Assembly: GCA_009268125.1 (NCBI GenBank)
Contig: WBOU01000007.1
Coordinates: 1 to 64,000 of the forward strand
Direction: 5' to 3'
Origin: Chloroflexia bacterium SDU3-3
GTDB taxonomy: Bacteria > Chloroflexota > Chloroflexia > Chloroflexales > Roseiflexaceae
Length of the DNA stretch: 64,000 nt
Below the pieces are notes generated by a model. The model saw only the letters and a program-made list of their open reading frames with translations, ran no database searches and was not told the DNA's origin. Of this stretch, positions 54,324 to 63,917 are shown piece by piece. The translations under genes and the position numbers were made by a program. How positions within the stretch are numbered: position 1 is the stretch's first letter; the number at the start of each line of letters is the position of its first letter.

Positions 54324-55004
54324 CTACGGCACCAGCCGGTACCCCACGCCCCACTCCGTCAGCAGCAGCTTGGGGTCGCGCGGGTCTTCTTCGAGCTTGC
54401 GGCGCAGGTGCCAGATGTAGACCTTGAGGTAGTCGTTGTCCTTGGTGTACTCGCTGCCCCACACACCCTGCAGCAGATTCTCGTGCTGCAGCACGCTTCC
54501 GGCATTCTCGGCCAGCAGCAGCAGCAGGTCGTACTCGGTGGGCGTCAGGTCGATCAGCTGGCCGCGGATCGTGACCTCGCGCTTCTGCTTGTCGATCACA
54601 ATGTCGGACTTGCCCGCCACCACCGGGCGGTTGGGCGAGGGCACGCGGCGGATGAGCGCGCGCACGCGGGCGTTCAGCTCGTCCATGTTGAAGGGCTTGG
54701 AGAGGTGGTCGTCGGCTCCGTTGTCGAGACCGGTCACAATATGCTGGCTGGAGCCGAGCGCGGTGAGCATCAGCACCGGCGTCTGCGTGAACTCGCGCAG
54801 GCGGCGGCAGACCTCCCACCCATCCATCTCAGGCATCATCACATCCAAAATGATCAGGTCAGGCTTCTGGCTCTGGGCTAGCTCTAGCGCCTGGTGGCCA
54901 TTGTCGGCCTGGAAGACCATATAGCCTTCGTGCTCGAGATTGATCCGTACGAGTTCTCGCAGACCGGCTTCATCGTCTACGATCAGGATACGGCGCTGCT
55001 CCAT
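54324..55004 (-). CDS. OmpR/PhoB family response regulator
   Basis: A 226-residue two-domain regulator. The receiver domain has the acidic pair Asp10-Asp11, phosphoacceptor Asp54 in LIILDVMMPEMDG and Lys103 in LSKPF. The C-terminal winged helix ends with the standard DYLKVYIWHLRRKLEEDP and GVGYRLVP. The sequence resembles KdpE/PhoB-like regulators. It lies 16 bases after the redoxin gene, so it may be transcribed with the cytochrome c locus; no kinase is adjacent on this strand. Confidence 0.93.
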   Translation of the reverse strand: MEQRRILIVDDEAGLRELVRINLEHEGYMVFQADNGHQALELAQSQKPDLIILDVMMPEMDGWEVCRRLREFTQTPVLMLTALGSSQHIVTGLDNGADDHLSKPFNMDELNARVRALIRRVPSPNRPVVAGKSDIVIDKQKREVTIRGQLIDLTPTEYDLLLLLAENAGSVLQHENLLQGVWGSEYTKDNDYLKVYIWHLRRKLEEDPRDPKLLLTEWGVGYRLVP

Positions 55005-55020
55005 GCTATTCCTCGCTCTT

Positions 55021-55842
55021 TCAGCGCATAGCGGCGGTATGCTGCTGAAGCTCGTTGAAAACGCGCTCCACATCTTGGGCGGTCAGTGATGTATAGCTCG
55101 CGTAGCGAATGGTGCCCGCTGGGTCGATGAAGAAGCTGGAAGGGAGCGGGAGCACTTGGTACGACCGCCCGACCGCGCCTTGCTCGTCGTAGACGATAGG
55201 GTATGTCACGCCGTAGCGGCTGACAAAGTTCTTCACATCTTGCTCGCCAGCGGGGCCATTCTGCTCGTTGCCACGCACATTCACGCCAATTACTACGAGT
55301 CCCTGATCCGAAAGTTTCTGGTATGTCTGCTGCAGCGCGGGCGTTTCGGCCTCGCAGGGGGCGCACTTGCTATACCAGAAGTTCACCAGCACCACCTTGC
55401 CCTGGCCAAAGTAGCTGTCGAGCCGCAGCGGCCTGCCCTCGATATCGTTCAGCTCGAAGGCGGGCGCGGGCTTCTCCATCTTCACCATGCTGATGGTGCG
55501 CGTGGTGCTGCGCCCGGCGAACACCCACACCACCATGATCAGCGCCAGCCCCACGGCGGCCCCGCCCACCAGCATGGCCAGCTCGCGGCGGCTGAGGCTG
55601 CTGCGCTCGCGGGCGGGCTGCTGGCCGCCCGCGTCGTAGGCGGCGCGGGCCTGCGGGTCGGCCAGGGTGCGGTGGGCCTGCTCGATGGCGGCCAGCCGCT
55701 GCTGGGCGATCTGGGCGAAATCCTCGCCCATGTCTTCGATATGCTCTAGGCTATAGCGCTGGCGCTCGCGGCTATAGGCGCGCTCGATCTGCTCGGCGCT
55801 GGCGTCGGGTGCGACGCCAAGCAGTGTGTAATAGCTTTCCAT
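55021..55842 (-). CDS. J-like domain/membrane segment/TlpA-type thioredoxin fusion (CcmG-like)
   Basis: A 273-residue protein in three parts. Residues 1-70 resemble a J domain (YYTLLGVAPDASAEQIERAY, ADPQARAAYDA) but the HPD loop is replaced by RYSLEHIED, so it should not activate DnaK in the usual way. Residues 88-110 are a membrane segment. The exported part is a TlpA/ResA-type redoxin with active site CAPC (160, 163) and the family insert VIGVNVRGNEQ. Position next to ccm genes suggests it reduces apocytochrome c, the role of CcmG. Start ATG 55842; the longer frame upstream lacks support. Confidence 0.85.
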   Translation of the reverse strand: MESYYTLLGVAPDASAEQIERAYSRERQRYSLEHIEDMGEDFAQIAQQRLAAIEQAHRTLADPQARAAYDAGGQQPARERSSLSRRELAMLVGGAAVGLALIMVVWVFAGRSTTRTISMVKMEKPAPAFELNDIEGRPLRLDSYFGQGKVVLVNFWYSKCAPCEAETPALQQTYQKLSDQGLVVIGVNVRGNEQNGPAGEQDVKNFVSRYGVTYPIVYDEQGAVGRSYQVLPLPSSFFIDPAGTIRYASYTSLTAQDVERVFNELQQHTAAMR

Positions 55843-55983
55843 GGCTTTAGAACAGGCTGTTGACCTGCGTGATGCGGTTATTTTAACATATTCATTCGGC
55901 GATGTATACACTCTTGAGTTAGGTGCATTTTCGCGCGTGTAGGAATCTCTCAACTATTCCTTAACAAATGTGGCGACACAGCG

Positions 55984-56994
55984 CTACTTGCTGTACTGCT
56001 CGATCATCTGCTGGGCCTGCCGCCCGAACGACGAGTCGGCGGGCTGGGTCTCACGCACCTTCACCCATGCGGCCATGGCCTCGCTGACGCGCGGCGGGTC
56101 GTCGCTGATCAGGCAGAAGCCCAGGCTGATCTGCACGCGTGGGTCGCTGGGCAGCTGCTGGGCGGCCTGCTGCACCGCCGCAAGGCCGCGCTGCACATAG
56201 TCCTTGCTGCCCGTGCCAGCGCCATAGAAGCACGAGCTCATGCCGTAGTCGGCGCGCACGGCGCTGTCCTGCGGGTCGAGCGCCAGGGCTTGGCTGTAGG
56301 CCTCGGTGGCCTCCAGCCAGCGCGAGATGCGCTGCTGGTAGAGCTGGCTGTCGGGCTGGAACTCGCGCACGATCTCGGCGCTGTTGTAGAGCACGTTGCC
56401 GTAATCCACCCACTTGTCGGGGTCGGTCGGGCTTTGCTTGGCAGCGGCCTCGGCGGCGGCGATCTCCGATTCGAACTGGTTGAAGTCGACGGTGGGCGTG
56501 GCGGTGGGCTGGGCATCTAGCAGCGTGCCGGGCTGCTGCCCGCTGATCAGGAAGGCCGCCGTGGCGATCAGCGCTACCGCCGCCAGGATGCCGAATACCA
56601 CTAGGGCCGGGTTGACCTGGGCCAGCCGACCGCCCGCTGCCCCGCCTGGGCTGGCCCGGCGCTGTGCGCGGTCGATGTCGCGCGGGCGCTCGGCGCGGCC
56701 CGCAGGCGGCAGCGGGCGGTAGTCGAGGGTCTCCTCGTCCTCGCCCAGCTCATCGGCGGGGGCCAGGGCCAGCTCGTCGTCGTAGCGGGCGCGGCGCTGC
56801 GGGTCGGCCAGCACCGCGTAGGCCCGCTCGATGTCGTCGCGCTTCTGGCGGGCCAGCGACACCAGTTCGTCGGCGGCACCTTCGAGCCGGGCGGCGCTGT
56901 AGCGGTCGAGCATGCGCTCGTAGGCGGCGCGGATGGCGTCGGCGTCGGCCTTGGGGTGAACCTGCAAGATCTCGTAGTAGTCGTCCACACGCAC
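55984..56994 (-). CDS. J-like domain/membrane segment/TPR fusion (CcmI-like)
   Basis: A 336-residue protein. Residues 1-72 are a J-like domain (DDYYEILQVHPKADADAIRA, ADPQRRARYDDE) with RYSAARLEG where HPD should be. A charged linker, a membrane segment (about 128-150) and a C-terminal exported region with TPR-like helices (TEAYSQALALDPQDSAVRADYG, QAAQQLPSDPRVQISLG) follow. CcmI/CycH is also a membrane-plus-TPR protein that chaperones apocytochrome c. Start is GTG; a second GTG two codons later is equally possible. It lies between ccmF and the J-redoxin gene on the same strand. Confidence 0.82.
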   Translation of the reverse strand: MRVDDYYEILQVHPKADADAIRAAYERMLDRYSAARLEGAADELVSLARQKRDDIERAYAVLADPQRRARYDDELALAPADELGEDEETLDYRPLPPAGRAERPRDIDRAQRRASPGGAAGGRLAQVNPALVVFGILAAVALIATAAFLISGQQPGTLLDAQPTATPTVDFNQFESEIAAAEAAAKQSPTDPDKWVDYGNVLYNSAEIVREFQPDSQLYQQRISRWLEATEAYSQALALDPQDSAVRADYGMSSCFYGAGTGSKDYVQRGLAAVQQAAQQLPSDPRVQISLGFCLISDDPPRVSEAMAAWVKVRETQPADSSFGRQAQQMIEQYSK

Positions 56995-57120: not shown

Positions 57121-57337
57121 TTGGTCGAGCCTCATTTTGACCTGGTCGAACCTCACTTTGACCCGGTCGAGGTTGATTCTGACCCGGTCGAACCTCACTT
57201 TGACCCGGTCGAGGTTGATTCTGACCCGGTCGAACCTCACTTTGACCCGGTCGAGGTTGATTCTGACCCGGTCGAACCTCACTTTGACCCGGTCGAGGTT
57301 GATTCTGACCCGGTCGAACCTCATTCTGACCCGGTCG
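57121..57337. repeat. 21-bp tandem repeat, nine full copies with 42-bp higher order
   Basis: Full units begin at 57139 and every 21 bases to 57307, with partial copies at each end. Two variants alternate: GACCCGGTCG followed by AACCTCACTTT, and GACCCGGTCG followed by AGGTTGATTCT. It fills the gap between ccmF and the J-TPR gene. All bases are repeats without unique spacers, so it is not a CRISPR array. Confidence 0.95.
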
Positions 57338-57342
57338 CGCGG

Positions 57343-59730
<2,388 letters not shown>

Positions 59731-59772: not shown

Positions 59773-60216
59773 CTAGTTGGTCGGGTTTACCTTGATACCT
59801 TCGGGGTGCTGGCCCTCCATCTCCTGGTACTTGGATGGGCACTGCACCAGCATGTCGTCGGCCAGGAAGGCCTGCTTCTGCGCGTCATAGTGGCCGATCA
59901 CCACGATGCTCACGGCCTGCTCGAAGTTGGACGGGCGCGGCTTGGGGTAGATCACCTTCACCAGCTTGCCGGTCTCATCCTGCAGGTCGAACACGAAGTT
60001 GTTCTGGGCGTCGTAGCCGCCGGTGGTGCCCAGGAAGCCCTTGAGCTGCACGCTGCGGGCGCTGGCCTCGGCCTCGGCGATGCTGGTGGTGTAGGGGCGG
60101 AAGGCGCTCTGCAGCCCGGCCCAGCCCAGGCCGATGGCCAGGGCGATCATGGCGAAGCCGATCAGGTGCAGCGGCTTGATGCTGATGCGTGGTCGCTCGA
60201 TGGGTGCGGTTGCCAT
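59773..60216 (-). CDS. ccmE: heme chaperone CcmE, CxxxY variant
   Basis: A 147-residue protein: short cytoplasmic tail, one membrane anchor (about 17-36) and an exported OB-fold domain. The heme-attachment motif, HxxxY in most bacteria, is here CPSKY (Cys126, Tyr130). The cysteine form is known from Desulfovibrio and archaea. No other cysteine is present in the protein. Ribosome-binding site AGGAG overlaps the ccmD stop. Confidence 0.92.
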   Translation of the reverse strand: MATAPIERPRISIKPLHLIGFAMIALAIGLGWAGLQSAFRPYTTSIAEAEASARSVQLKGFLGTTGGYDAQNNFVFDLQDETGKLVKVIYPKPRPSNFEQAVSIVVIGHYDAQKQAFLADDMLVQCPSKYQEMEGQHPEGIKVNPTN

Positions 60217-60225
60217 GGGGTGCTC

Positions 60226-60435
60226 CTAGCTCTTGGCCTCGGTGGGCGTGCGGGTCTCCAGGGTGGCCCGTGGGGCGGCTGGCTCGGCGGTGGGGGCCTG
60301 CTCGATCTTGCGACGCAGCTCGCGGGCCTGCCCGTCGATCCGCCACAGGTAGACGAAGATCGCCAGCCACACCACCAGCGCCACGGCCAGCGATGTGTAG
60401 ATTGCGATGCTTGGGTTAGCTAGAAAGTCGCCCAT
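60226..60435 (-). CDS. ccmD: CcmD-like small membrane protein
   Basis: A 69-residue protein with one membrane segment (IYTSLAVALVVWLAIFVYLW) followed by RIDGQARELRRKIEQ, the CcmD layout. It stabilises the CcmABC complex and helps release holo-CcmE. The start at 60435 lies within the end of ccmC (20-base overlap) after GGGAGAG. Confidence 0.82.
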   Translation of the reverse strand: MGDFLANPSIAIYTSLAVALVVWLAIFVYLWRIDGQARELRRKIEQAPTAEPAAPRATLETRTPTEAKS

Positions 60436-61447
60436 GTGCTCTCTCCCGCTGGGCCAGCCACTCCGCGCCAAGCAGCAGGCGGGCGCGCAGCGTCATGAGC
60501 CAGACAAATAGGCCGGTGAAGCCAATGATGGATGCGAAGAAGGTCAGCAGCGTGCGGACATTGTTCAGGGTTCCGGTGCCGGGGGCCTCGATGTTCAGCT
60601 TGGCGGTGCCAGCGGCCACGTCGGCGTCCTCCAGGGCCAGCAGAAACTGCTGCCCGGCGAAGGTGGGGCGGTCGGCGGGCTTGCGCGGGCCGGGGTCGAA
60701 GGTGGGGGACAGCTGCTGGGCGGGCGCGCCTGGAGTGCGCACCTCCACCTCGGCGCGCACCATGCCCTGGTCCTCGCGCAGGCCCTTCAGCTCGATCACG
60801 TTGTCGCCCAGCTGGCCGATCTTCGCGCCGTTCAGGTTCAGCACCACGCCGCTGCACTTGCTGCCCTGCAGGAAGGCGCAGTTGGGGTGAAGCGAGCTGT
60901 CGGCCAGGCGCGGCGCGATGAACAGCAGGAAGGGCATGGTCACCAGGGCGAACAGGTTGTAGGCCGAGGAGAGCCGCCGCCTGCGGGTGTCGTCGTCGAT
61001 GGCCGAGCGCAGCGCGAAGTAGGCCGCGTAGATCAGCAGCAGCACCAGGATGGAGGTCTCGCGCGGGTCCCAGTTCCAGAACACGCCCCAGGCGATCTGC
61101 GCGAAGATCGCGCCGGTGACAGTGGCCAGGATGCAGAAGAGGAAGCCTACCTCGGCGGCAGCCACGGCGTAGGCGTCGTGGGCGGGGCGGCGGCGCAGCA
61201 GGTAGAGCGCGCTGAACACGCCCGAGACGGTGAAGGCCAGCGAGGTGACCCAGGCCGTGGGCACGTGGATGATCACGATCCGACCGGCCTCGCCCAGCCC
61301 CTCGTACTGCGGGATGAGCGCGAACATGGCGATGATGACCCCGGCCATCCAGAGGCCCAAGATCAGCTTGGCCACCTGGGCCGCCCGCTCGCCGAGGCTA
61401 GGGCTGTGCGGGCCTGCGGGGGCCGCACGTGTCTGCGTGACTGTCAT
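60416..61447 (-). CDS. ccmC: heme handling protein CcmC with an extra periplasmic domain
   Basis: A 343-residue protein, about 100 residues longer than typical CcmC. The core is normal: His61 in HVPTAW, the WWD segment WGVFWNWDPRE (120-130) and His187 in SSLHPN. Straight after His187, residues about 190-295 form an added soluble region rich in beta-like sequence (VVLNLNGAKIGQLGDNVIEL), with Cys190 and Cys198 at its start. The last membrane segment (300-322) then follows. The insertion therefore faces the site where heme and CcmE meet. Confidence 0.9.
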   Translation of the reverse strand: MTVTQTRAAPAGPHSPSLGERAAQVAKLILGLWMAGVIIAMFALIPQYEGLGEAGRIVIIHVPTAWVTSLAFTVSGVFSALYLLRRRPAHDAYAVAAAEVGFLFCILATVTGAIFAQIAWGVFWNWDPRETSILVLLLIYAAYFALRSAIDDDTRRRRLSSAYNLFALVTMPFLLFIAPRLADSSLHPNCAFLQGSKCSGVVLNLNGAKIGQLGDNVIELKGLREDQGMVRAEVEVRTPGAPAQQLSPTFDPGPRKPADRPTFAGQQFLLALEDADVAAGTAKLNIEAPGTGTLNNVRTLLTFFASIIGFTGLFVWLMTLRARLLLGAEWLAQRERAHGRLSS

Positions 61448-61537
61448 AGGTTCGTTTGTTGCCTTTGTGAAACTCGTGCATTCTATCACAATATTGGCAG
61501 CTGCGCTGCCAGTGTGGGCGGGCCTGCGGGCGCTGGG

Positions 61538-61870
61538 CTAGTGGTGGTGTGAGATCGGCGTGTGCGGCACGGCCAGCTGGCCCTGCTCGCTATGCCACGA
61601 GCCGATGGATGCGAAGGCGGCCTGCTGCTGGTAGCGCACCGGCTGCAGCAGCGGGGCCACCGGGCCTGCCGCGTGGGCATGGTCGCCCTGGTGGGCCAGC
61701 GGCGCGGCGTACAGCGCCAGCGCCAGCGCCGCCGCGCCCAGCGCGCTGCCCGCCTGGGCCATGGCGTGGCGCTGCCTGCGGCGGCGGTCGGCGGCGGCCA
61801 GCCGCTGGGCCAGCCGCTGGGCGAAGGCCGCGCGCGGCGGCTCGCGAAACTGCTCAAGAAAATCGCCCAC
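61538..61870 (-). CDS. small membrane protein with His-rich tail, candidate anti-sigma factor
   Basis: A 110-residue protein. Residues 1-38 are cytoplasmic and basic, 39-58 are a membrane segment, and the exported tail contains eight histidines, including HQGDHAHA and a terminal SHHH. It has no zinc-binding anti-sigma motif. The GTG start follows the sigma factor stop codon directly, with GAGGAGAAG inside the sigma gene, so the two are coupled. Anti-sigma function is inferred from this coupling and topology. Confidence 0.6.
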   Translation of the reverse strand: MGDFLEQFREPPRAAFAQRLAQRLAAADRRRRQRHAMAQAGSALGAAALALALYAAPLAHQGDHAHAAGPVAPLLQPVRYQQQAAFASIGSWHSEQGQLAVPHTPISHHH

Positions 61871-62401
61871 CTACTTCTCCTCGTCCCACGCGGCGCGCAG
61901 CCGCTTGGTCACGCGGTGCAAAATGCTGCCCACGTTGCTCTCGCTCAGCCCGGTCAGCTGGGCGATCATGCGGTTGTTGAGCGATGCGCCGTACTTCATG
62001 GCCACCAGCTCGCGCTCGCGCTCGGCCAGGCCCGCCAGCAGTTCGCCCAGCCGCGCCATATCGCTGCGGCGCTGGGCCTCCTCCTCGGGGCTGCCGGGGG
62101 CGGCGTGGCCGTGGGCGGCCTCCAGCGGGGCCTCGTCGCGGCGCGCCCGCAGGTGGTCGATGCCCACGCGCTGGGCGATGGTGAACAGCCATGTGGAAAA
62201 CGCGCCCAGATCGCTGCGGTAGCGCTCGCGGGCCACCCAGGCCTTCTCGAAGGTGGCGGCGGTCAGATCCTCGGCCAGCGCGCTATCGCCGAAGCGGTAG
62301 CGGAAGAAGTTGTAGACGCGCGGCAGCTGCTCGGCGTACACCGCGTCCCAATCGACCGGCTCGCTCTCGGCCGTTTGTCGCTTCAGTGCGCGCGACCACA
62401 T
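61871..62401 (-). CDS. ECF-type RNA polymerase sigma factor
   Basis: A 176-residue sigma-70 family protein with region 2 (RVYNFFRYRFGDSALAEDLT, then FSTWLFTIAQRVGIDHLR) and region 4 (ERERELVAMKYGASLNNRMI, ESNVGSILHRVTKRLR). Region 3 is absent, as in extracytoplasmic-function factors. ATG 62401 has GAGG seven bases upstream; the ATG at 62407 is too close to it. It stands inside the ccm locus between ccmB and ccmC. Confidence 0.9.
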   Translation of the reverse strand: MWSRALKRQTAESEPVDWDAVYAEQLPRVYNFFRYRFGDSALAEDLTAATFEKAWVARERYRSDLGAFSTWLFTIAQRVGIDHLRARRDEAPLEAAHGHAAPGSPEEEAQRRSDMARLGELLAGLAERERELVAMKYGASLNNRMIAQLTGLSESNVGSILHRVTKRLRAAWDEEK

Positions 62402-62536
62402 GCTCATGCCTCATGATACGGATGGCTGAGAAAAGTATCACATACCATCGCCGCGATCTTTTCAAAATGCGAAAGGCCGCTTGTTCACAGCGCTTTCTGT
62501 ATAAAAAGGATGCCGAGCGCAGGATCGCCGATGTTT

Positions 62537-62575: not shown

Positions 62576-63301
62576 CTAGGCCTCCCAGACGCTGCGGAAC
62601 AGGAACAGCGAGGCCACCACCAGCGCCAGCGTGAAGGCCAGCAGCACCTGGATGGAGCCAAGCCCGCCCGCCCAGGTCTCGCCCTGCAGCGCCAGGGCCG
62701 TGCCACGGATGGCGATCGCCATGGGCGGGATGATGATCGGGAAGGACAGCACGGCGAACAGCGCGCCCTTGGCGCTGGCCCGCGCGATGATTGCCGCGAT
62801 CAGGGTGGTGGAGGCCACCAGTGCCAGATTGCCCGCCAGCAGCAGCGCGATCAGCAGGCCGGGGTTGCCCACCCGCACGCGCAGCATGGCCACGAACAGC
62901 GGCGCGGTCACCACATCCAGCGCCAGCAGCAGCACTAGGTTGAACAGCAGCTTGCCCACGAACACGGCCAGCGGCGGCGCGGCCAGCCGCAGCGCCAGCG
63001 CCGTGCGGCTCTCCTCCTCCTGCACGAAGGCGCGGGCCAGCCCGGTGAAGGCCGCGAACAGCAGCGCCAGCCACAGCAGCGCGGCATGGATCATGGGCAG
63101 GTCGGTGTTGGCCAGCGGCGCTATCGGCCCCACGCCCAGGCTGATCGCGATCACGCTGCTGACGGCGAACAGCAGCAGCGCGTTGATGGCGTAACGGGTG
63201 CGCAGCTCGGCGCGCATGTCTTTGCGGAAGACCGCCCACGCGGCGGGCCAGAGCGCAGGCTCGGCGTGGTGCGGCGTGTGGGTTGCCTGGGTCTGCTCCA
63301 T
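62576..63301 (-). CDS. ccmB: heme exporter permease CcmB
   Basis: A 241-residue protein with six hydrophobic segments. FRKDMRAELRTRYAINALLLF is the conserved N-terminal block and FVQEEESRTALALRLAAPP the next. With CcmA and CcmC it forms the ABC-type complex that releases holo-CcmE. It starts one base after the ccmA stop codon. Confidence 0.93.
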   Translation of the reverse strand: MEQTQATHTPHHAEPALWPAAWAVFRKDMRAELRTRYAINALLLFAVSSVIAISLGVGPIAPLANTDLPMIHAALLWLALLFAAFTGLARAFVQEEESRTALALRLAAPPLAVFVGKLLFNLVLLLALDVVTAPLFVAMLRVRVGNPGLLIALLLAGNLALVASTTLIAAIIARASAKGALFAVLSFPIIIPPMAIAIRGTALALQGETWAGGLGSIQVLLAFTLALVVASLFLFRSVWEA

Positions 63302-63302
63302 G

Positions 63303-63917
63303 CTATACCCCCAGCCGCAGCAGATAGTCGCCGTGGCGCAGCTCGCGCTGGTCGTTGGTGGCGATCACGGCCACGCCGCGCTGGCGCTGGCGCTGGATGA
63401 CCGACTCGACCAGCGCCGCGCCACGCTCATCCAGCATCACGGTCGGCTCATCTAGCAGCAGCACCGGCGGCTCGTGCAGCAGCGCGTAGGCGTACTTCAG
63501 CCGGTATGCCATGCCCGAGGAGAAGGTGGCCAGCAGGTCGTCGCCGCGACCGCCCAGCCCCACCTCGTCCAGCAGCCGCTCTAGCTCGGCGCGGCCACGG
63601 CGCAGCCCGCGCACGCTGGCGAAGAAAGCCAGATTCTCCAGCGCGGTCAGCTCGCGGTAGAGCTGGAGGTCAGGCGCGACCCAGCCCACCAGCCCGCTGG
63701 CCGCCTCGGGGCGGTAGCGCGCCCCATCCACAATATAGGCCACGCTGCCGCCCGATGGGCGCTGCAGGCCGCACAGCACCCGCAGCAGCGAGCTTTTGCC
63801 GCTGCCATTGGCCCCAGCCACCACCAGCACCTCGCCCTGGCGCAGGCTCAGCGAGATGTGCTCCATCACGCGGCGCGGGCCATAGTCGATCGTCACATGC
63901 TCAAGCTCAAGCTGCAT
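63303..63917 (-). CDS. ccmA: heme exporter ATPase CcmA
   Basis: A 204-residue ABC ATPase. Walker A is GANGSGKSS, the signature is shifted to FSSGMAYRLKYA, Walker B is VLLLDEPTVMLD. CcmA uses ATP hydrolysis to release heme-loaded CcmE from CcmC. First complete ccm gene in the window. Confidence 0.93.
   Translation of the reverse strand: MQLELEHVTIDYGPRRVMEHISLSLRQGEVLVVAGANGSGKSSLLRVLCGLQRPSGGSVAYIVDGARYRPEAASGLVGWVAPDLQLYRELTALENLAFFASVRGLRRGRAELERLLDEVGLGGRGDDLLATFSSGMAYRLKYAYALLHEPPVLLLDEPTVMLDERGAALVESVIQRQRQRGVAVIATNDQRELRHGDYLLRLGV

Follow-up and report, generated by a model that had tools for sequence, protein, structure and literature searches.

Two proteins encoded beside the cytochrome c maturation (Ccm) genes of a Chloroflexales bacterium each begin with a J-like domain that has lost the HPD motif, followed by one predicted membrane helix and an exported domain. 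The exported domain is a TPR array in the first protein (hereafter J-TPR) and a thioredoxin-fold redoxin in the second (hereafter J-TlpA). We propose that these pseudo-J domains are docking domains that would bring together the parts of a heme lyase without CcmH from its cytoplasmic face; as to function and partner, this reading could equally well prove right or wrong. System I* and the loss of CcmH were already known, and the new element is the presence of pseudo-J domains on two cytochrome c maturation proteins throughout an order.

Organization of the ccm locus

The window, which is the whole stretch of 64,000 nucleotides that was analysed, belongs to a 6.76 Mb genome of the order Chloroflexales and contains all six genes ccmABCDEF. 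On the minus strand, the gene order is ccmA, ccmB, an ECF sigma factor with a small ORF, ccmC, ccmD, ccmE, ccmF, J-TPR, J-TlpA and a response regulator. The genes of the locus are the following:

63303..63917, minus strand: ccmA, an ORF with homologues in the same position in relatives
62576..63301, minus strand: ccmB, also an ORF with homologues in the same position in relatives
60416..61489, minus strand: ccmC, with an exoplasmic insert specific to the order that begins TLHPNC...C
60226..60471, minus strand: ccmD, CcmD_alt family (TIGR04391, 30.5 bits, cut-off 24)
59773..60216, minus strand: ccmE, its product terminating with the Cys-type heme site CPSKY (System I*; PF03100)
57343..59730, minus strand: ccmF, heme lyase (PF01578 and PF16327), with J-TPR directly downstream
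55984..56994, minus strand: J-TPR gene (336 aa, GTG start), encoding a J-like domain, DYRPLPPA, one membrane helix and an exported TPR array; CcmI-like
55021..55842, minus strand: J-TlpA gene (273 aa), encoding a J-like domain, one membrane helix and an exported ResA/TlpA redoxin; CcmG-like
54324..55073, minus strand: OmpR-type response regulator (PF00072 and PF00486; start codon uncertain)

A sequence-only reading of this DNA had described two genes with a J-like part, a membrane segment and an exported domain adjoining ccmABCDEF, and both ORFs are indeed found there on the minus strand. According to homologues, J-TlpA starts at the ATG at 55842 and not at a TTG upstream. A promoter-like sequence (TATACA-17-TAAAAT with TG, 55908-55880, minus strand) lies between J-TPR and J-TlpA, and J-TlpA may have its own promoter. 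The gap between ccmF and J-TPR holds a 21/42-bp repeat array (57123-57337), and further copies of this repeat are present elsewhere in the genome, on contigs C2, C4, C8 and C19. The ECF sigma factor and the 110-aa ORF between ccmB and ccmC (61538-62407, minus strand) had no match at that place in the ccm operons of relatives. A further protein with a J domain, a membrane helix and an exported domain is encoded elsewhere in the same genome (contig C5, L004, 1471-2847), with its HPD intact.

The J-like domains keep the fold and lack HPD

The domains and motifs of the two proteins map as follows:

56767..56994, minus strand: J-like domain of J-TPR (residues 1-76) with SAA instead of HPD
56701..56724, minus strand: codons of the juxtamembrane motif DYRPLPPA of J-TPR, residues 91-98
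56545..56610, minus strand: membrane helix of J-TPR, residues 129-150 (AlphaFold2 model; hydropathy of homologues)
55990..56484, minus strand: exported TPR domain of J-TPR, eight helices, residues 171-335 (AlphaFold2 pLDDT mostly above 93)
55621..55842, minus strand: J-like domain of J-TlpA (residues 1-74) with SLE instead of HPD
55510..55590, minus strand: membrane helix of J-TlpA, residues 85-111 (AlphaFold2 model)
55354..55365, minus strand: redox active site CAPC of J-TlpA, residues 160-163 (C160, P162 and C163 invariant among homologues)

Both N-termini matched the complete Pfam DnaJ profile (PF00226, positions 1-63) above its gathering cut-off of 27.8 bits, with 37.3 bits for J-TPR and 33.8 bits for J-TlpA. 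AlphaFold2 models, whose input alignments consisted of homologues found on named Chloroflexales contigs, placed helices I-IV at residues 6-10, 18-31, 42-63 and 65-77 of J-TPR and at residues 4-8, 16-29, 40-61 and 63-72 of J-TlpA, mostly with a pLDDT of at least 90. The four-helix J fold was read off the secondary structure of these models, while Foldseek and VIA covered the redoxin and TPR parts. Pfam DnaJ also matched all 35 J-TPR members and 22 of 28 redoxin members, the other redoxins being mostly without the domain. A profile made from 16 J domains of these proteins found Thermus DnaJ2 (4j7z, E 2.6e-16) and E. coli DnaJ. A chance resemblance to J domains is excluded by the curated cut-offs and by the DnaJ match in all 35 J-TPR members. 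The sequence-only reading, whose proposal depended on J folds without HPD in these regions, was right on this point.

The same reading had placed RYS at the HPD site, which the alignment with E. coli DnaJ corrects: RYS corresponds to DnaJ positions 31-33, and the residues at H33-P34-D35 are SAA in J-TPR and SLE in J-TlpA of the window. No HPD was present among 57 distinct J-TPR and 43 distinct J-TlpA N-termini; HAE was read at these positions in one frameshifted fragment. The family rule is D/N/A-P-E/A, for which the S of the window is atypical. J-TPR has D, A, S or N at position 33, where most J-TlpA sequences have N, D or A. Both families usually retain P34; at position 35, E or A predominates in J-TPR, and J-TlpA mostly has E or D. 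At the position of DnaJ K26, most members have E, A or Q, and F47 is lost, with Y25, R27, R63 and D67 of the J fold still present. Helix II has a mean net charge of +0.4 in J-TPR and -0.05 in J-TlpA, whereas 18 HPD-bearing control J proteins, taken from other phyla, average +1.7. Between close species pairs, the J part has a dN/dS of 0.02-0.18, indicating purifying selection, and in most of these pairs the J part is under tighter constraint than the linker and membrane segment. The loss of HPD, the nearly neutral helix II and the low dN/dS together suggest a preserved fold that no longer has its Hsp70 switch.

These residues also bear on whether the J domains could still work, recruiting DnaK without HPD and keeping apocytochromes unfolded before export. 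The J fold with Y25, R27, R63 and D67 persists, and DnaJ-type proteins with HPD are encoded elsewhere in the same genome, as such a role would allow. However, HPD is needed for Hsp70 stimulation, H33 is absent throughout, D35 is often A or E, K26 is often E or A and F47 is lost, making working J domains very improbable.

The exported domains resemble those of CcmI and CcmG

The exported part of J-TPR was modelled as an eight-helix TPR array, with a VIA Z score of 16.9 to TatT (3u64). It scored 28.1 bits against PF23914 (TPR_CcmH_CycH), below the cut-off of 42, and 21 of the 35 J-TPR members touched this profile. J-TPR shares the exported TPR part with CcmI but has one membrane helix in the AlphaFold2 model where CcmI has two. 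The exported part of J-TlpA adopts a thioredoxin fold in the AlphaFold2 model, with ResA as best Foldseek match (1st9, E 1.5e-14), and its fold, CxxC and membrane anchor are those of a ResA/TlpA-type redoxin. Its score against TIGR00385 (CcmG/DsbE) was 67.6 bits, below the cut-off of 123.15. The PF23914 and TIGR00385 scores, both under curated cut-offs, argue against a CcmI and CcmG identity. By position and fold, the two proteins should nevertheless fill the CcmI and CcmG roles, and the CcmI-like TPR and CcmG-like CAPC redoxin domains recognized in the sequence-only reading find their counterparts in the TPR array and the ResA match.

Residues D91, P94 and L95 of the DYRPLPPA motif are invariant in 18 of 18 J-TPR sequences, one J-less member included. 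A degenerate DNA pattern for the motif occurs essentially once per genome, in J-TPR. Judged by its conservation, DYRPLPPA is the strictest element of the predicted cytoplasmic part; it adjoins the J domain and is retained even where both J domains are missing. The idea of DYRPLPP as a wider module was dropped, as matches outside J-TPR, such as one in a nitrilase-like protein (L194) and a DYSPLPP reading (G045), were due to chance.

Distribution in the order Chloroflexales

A J-TPR match was detected in 76 of 82 Chloroflexales genomes, including Chloroflexus, Roseiflexus and Oscillochloris. In at least two of the genomes without a match (G061 and G062), the contig stops just past ccmF. Elsewhere in the class and phylum searched, there was no full-length J-TPR and only J-domain matches were obtained. 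J-TPR is located directly 3' of ccmF in 40 fetched Chloroflexales loci from four families, and J-TlpA or its J-less form comes after it in 36 of these 40. The arrangement ccmF, J-TPR, J-TlpA, response regulator persists throughout Chloroflexales, so that the linkage to ccm in related genomes on which the sequence-only reading had staked its proposal extends to the whole order. In Viridilinea, a J-TlpA-like match lies on a separate contig. Many relatives in the comparison set are metagenome-assembled genomes (MAGs), with some reading frames broken. Two-frame splits of J-TlpA or J-TPR were seen in L049 (8267-9009, minus strand), L074 (8478-9529, minus strand) and L064 (8802-9958), resulting either from sequencing error or from real breakage.

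An OmpR-type regulator is found 3' of J-TlpA in most Chloroflexales loci, and one could imagine that the J part binds this co-operonic regulator or senses a cytoplasmic signal, and does not act on the Ccm core. The regulator is still present in the loci without both J domains (L057-L060), however, and we find this explanation scarcely credible.

Three genomes have an additional ccmF that is split and adjoins another J-TlpA of 261-264 aa (L115, 1213-4377; L116, 8174-11292, minus strand; L126, 952-4082, minus strand). These divergent loci possibly encode a dedicated heme lyase. As they carry a J-TlpA, the link between CcmF and a J-bearing redoxin exists at a further site. No published description of J domains joined with Ccm was found in the open-licence literature, which agrees with the sequence-only reading, to which no precedent was known; an earlier account may exist elsewhere.

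Absence of CcmH, System I* and the CcmC insert

The sequence-only reading had seen no CcmH, and the CcmH profile (PF03918) has no match in the whole genome, while it does match in control genomes. The same holds for all 82 Chloroflexales genomes (0 of 82). Outside Chloroflexales, 31 of 76 genomes of the class carry CcmH, and relatives there encode a J-less redoxin/CcmG and have a CcmH-like gene next to ccmF. The CPSKY motif is present in 73 of 73 CcmE proteins of the fetched Chloroflexales loci. System I* (Desulfovibrio, archaea, Chloroflexi) is marked by a CPSKY CcmE and frequent absence of CcmH (Allen 2006; PMC3601427). With its CPSKY CcmE and no CcmH, the operon is by sequence a System I*, a type already reported for Chloroflexi (PMC3601427). 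The absence of CcmH therefore needs no special explanation, being a known tendency of System I*, Chloroflexi included.

The exoplasmic insert in CcmC is about 110 aa long and starts at the heme-ligand His motif (TLHPNCAF..GS.C.G). It contains two Cys in essentially every Chloroflexales member examined (L038-L077, L109-L169), and the CcmC proteins of three relatives from outside the order that have CcmH are without the insert. This Cys pair could replace the CcmH thiols. A DsbD/CcdA-type membrane protein, encoded in the same genome, is the likely electron source.

Unequal absence of the two J domains

When mapped on a CcmF tree with 41 loci, the J domain of the redoxin shows at least five state changes and that of the TPR protein one, counts that do not separate gain from loss. 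Loss would be the simpler reading, because J is widespread on both proteins and the membrane-proximal motifs are shared. The redoxin lacks J while the TPR protein has it in Roseiflexus (L039, L040, L043), L041, L054 and L063/L077. In genus g29 (family f3; L057-L060), both proteins are without J and the rest of the operon is still there. Shortened J domains occur on the redoxin of family f4 members (L055, L056, L076). A six-frame search 5' of the J-less TlpA genes found no hidden or frameshifted J domain, except for a remnant in a MAG contig (L137).

The sequence-only reading had viewed the J domains as a pair docking both proteins to one common partner. As an obligatory arrangement this does not hold up well: losses are unequal in the TPR protein and the redoxin, and Roseiflexus has J on the TPR protein and none on TlpA. 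The absence of J in several lineages indicates that the J domains are useful and not an obligatory pair, and the persistence of the g29 operon without either shows that J is not indispensable for maturation.

Pairing of another kind is also unlikely in our view: the pseudo-J domains would associate together, or with a J protein that has HPD, in the manner of Pam16/Pam18, and would control a DnaK motor where export takes place. Two J-like domains are encoded in one operon, the J-TPR and J-TlpA sets group together against HPD-type J domains (support 85, weak as it comes from 74 columns only), and the one genus whose TPR protein has no J has none on its redoxin either. Pam18 and Pam16 form a heterodimer through their J-type domains (PMC3806816), but one Pam partner retains HPD and neither protein does here. 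There is, moreover, no third J gene in the operon, and several lineages keep J-TPR while TlpA has no J.

The repeated absence of J from TlpA and the shortened domains of family f4 could also mean that the J part is a passive remnant of one old fusion, a soluble cap that aids folding or membrane insertion and is being discarded. We regard this as doubtful, as the J part is under purifying selection and the J domain of the TPR protein is kept in every lineage but one.

A proposed docking role for the pseudo-J domains

In the docking reading that we favour, J-TPR would be a CcmI-like apocytochrome holdase and J-TlpA a CcmG/ResA-like thiol reductase, both serving a CcmH-less System I* operon. Each would be anchored by a single membrane helix, with its working domain outside and its pseudo-J domain inside; the pseudo-J parts are placed in the cytoplasm because the redoxin and TPR domains are active outside, with only one membrane helix in between. 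The pseudo-J domains should not switch on DnaK, because they have lost HPD and their helix II retains little of its positive charge. Together with the DYRPLPPA segment, they would form a docking surface that places both exported domains beside CcmF. Such cytoplasmic docking would replace the lost CcmH and the cytoplasmic loop of classical CcmI. The docking partner may be CcmF, CcmA or the other pseudo-J protein, and the division of labour between the two proteins is equally presumptive. The absence of J from TlpA in several lineages, and from both proteins in g29, speaks against docking. A fuller version, in which the lyase is rebuilt without CcmH, the pseudo-J scaffold coupling CcmF, holdase and redoxin and the CcmC Cys-pair insert giving the thiol function, seems rather improbable.

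The assembly of the System I heme lyase and its function without CcmH are unsettled (PMC3601427). In a whole order, the cultivated Chloroflexus and Roseiflexus included, Ccm accessory proteins appear to reach the cytoplasm through a disabled chaperone domain. If the J part docks the lyase, J folds would serve as pure scaffolds in bacterial cofactor assembly. The natural absences of J, on the redoxin in Roseiflexus and on both proteins in g29, are ready controls.

Comparison with known systems

The locus shares with System I*, as presented in the accessible text of PMC3601427, the CPSKY CcmE, ccmABCDEF and the lack of CcmH. That text makes no mention of J domains on CcmG or CcmI, whereas here both exported partners carry a pseudo-J domain; the Chloroflexales CcmC adds the Cys-pair insert. 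The Desulfovibrio system has been rebuilt in E. coli deprived of its native ccm genes (PMC3601427). In R. capsulatus, CcmI is an apocytochrome-binding protein that copurifies with CcmF and CcmH (PMC3884852). J-TPR has in common with CcmI/CycH of R. capsulatus and P. aeruginosa the exported TPR domain, the membrane anchor and the ccmF neighbour, but combines one membrane helix with a cytosolic J-like domain, where CcmI has two helices and a short cytoplasmic loop.

CcmG of System I is a thiol reductase. Like CcmG/DsbE and ResA/TlpA, J-TlpA has a membrane-anchored thioredoxin fold with CxxC, ResA being the nearest solved structure. It differs by its cytosolic N-terminal J-like domain and by a CAPC preceded by K and not W, and it scores under the DsbE and ResA cut-offs.

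Pam16/Tim16 and other HPD-less J-like proteins share the J fold, the membrane link and, if our proposal is right, docking in place of Hsp70 stimulation. Pam16/Tim16 belongs to the mitochondrial import motor and is without an exported redoxin or TPR domain. ERdj5/DNAJC10 (3apq, in the PDB profile search) resembles J-TlpA in having J and redoxin in one chain. Its J domain retains HPD and lies in the same compartment as its redoxins, whereas in J-TlpA the membrane separates the J domain from the redoxin.
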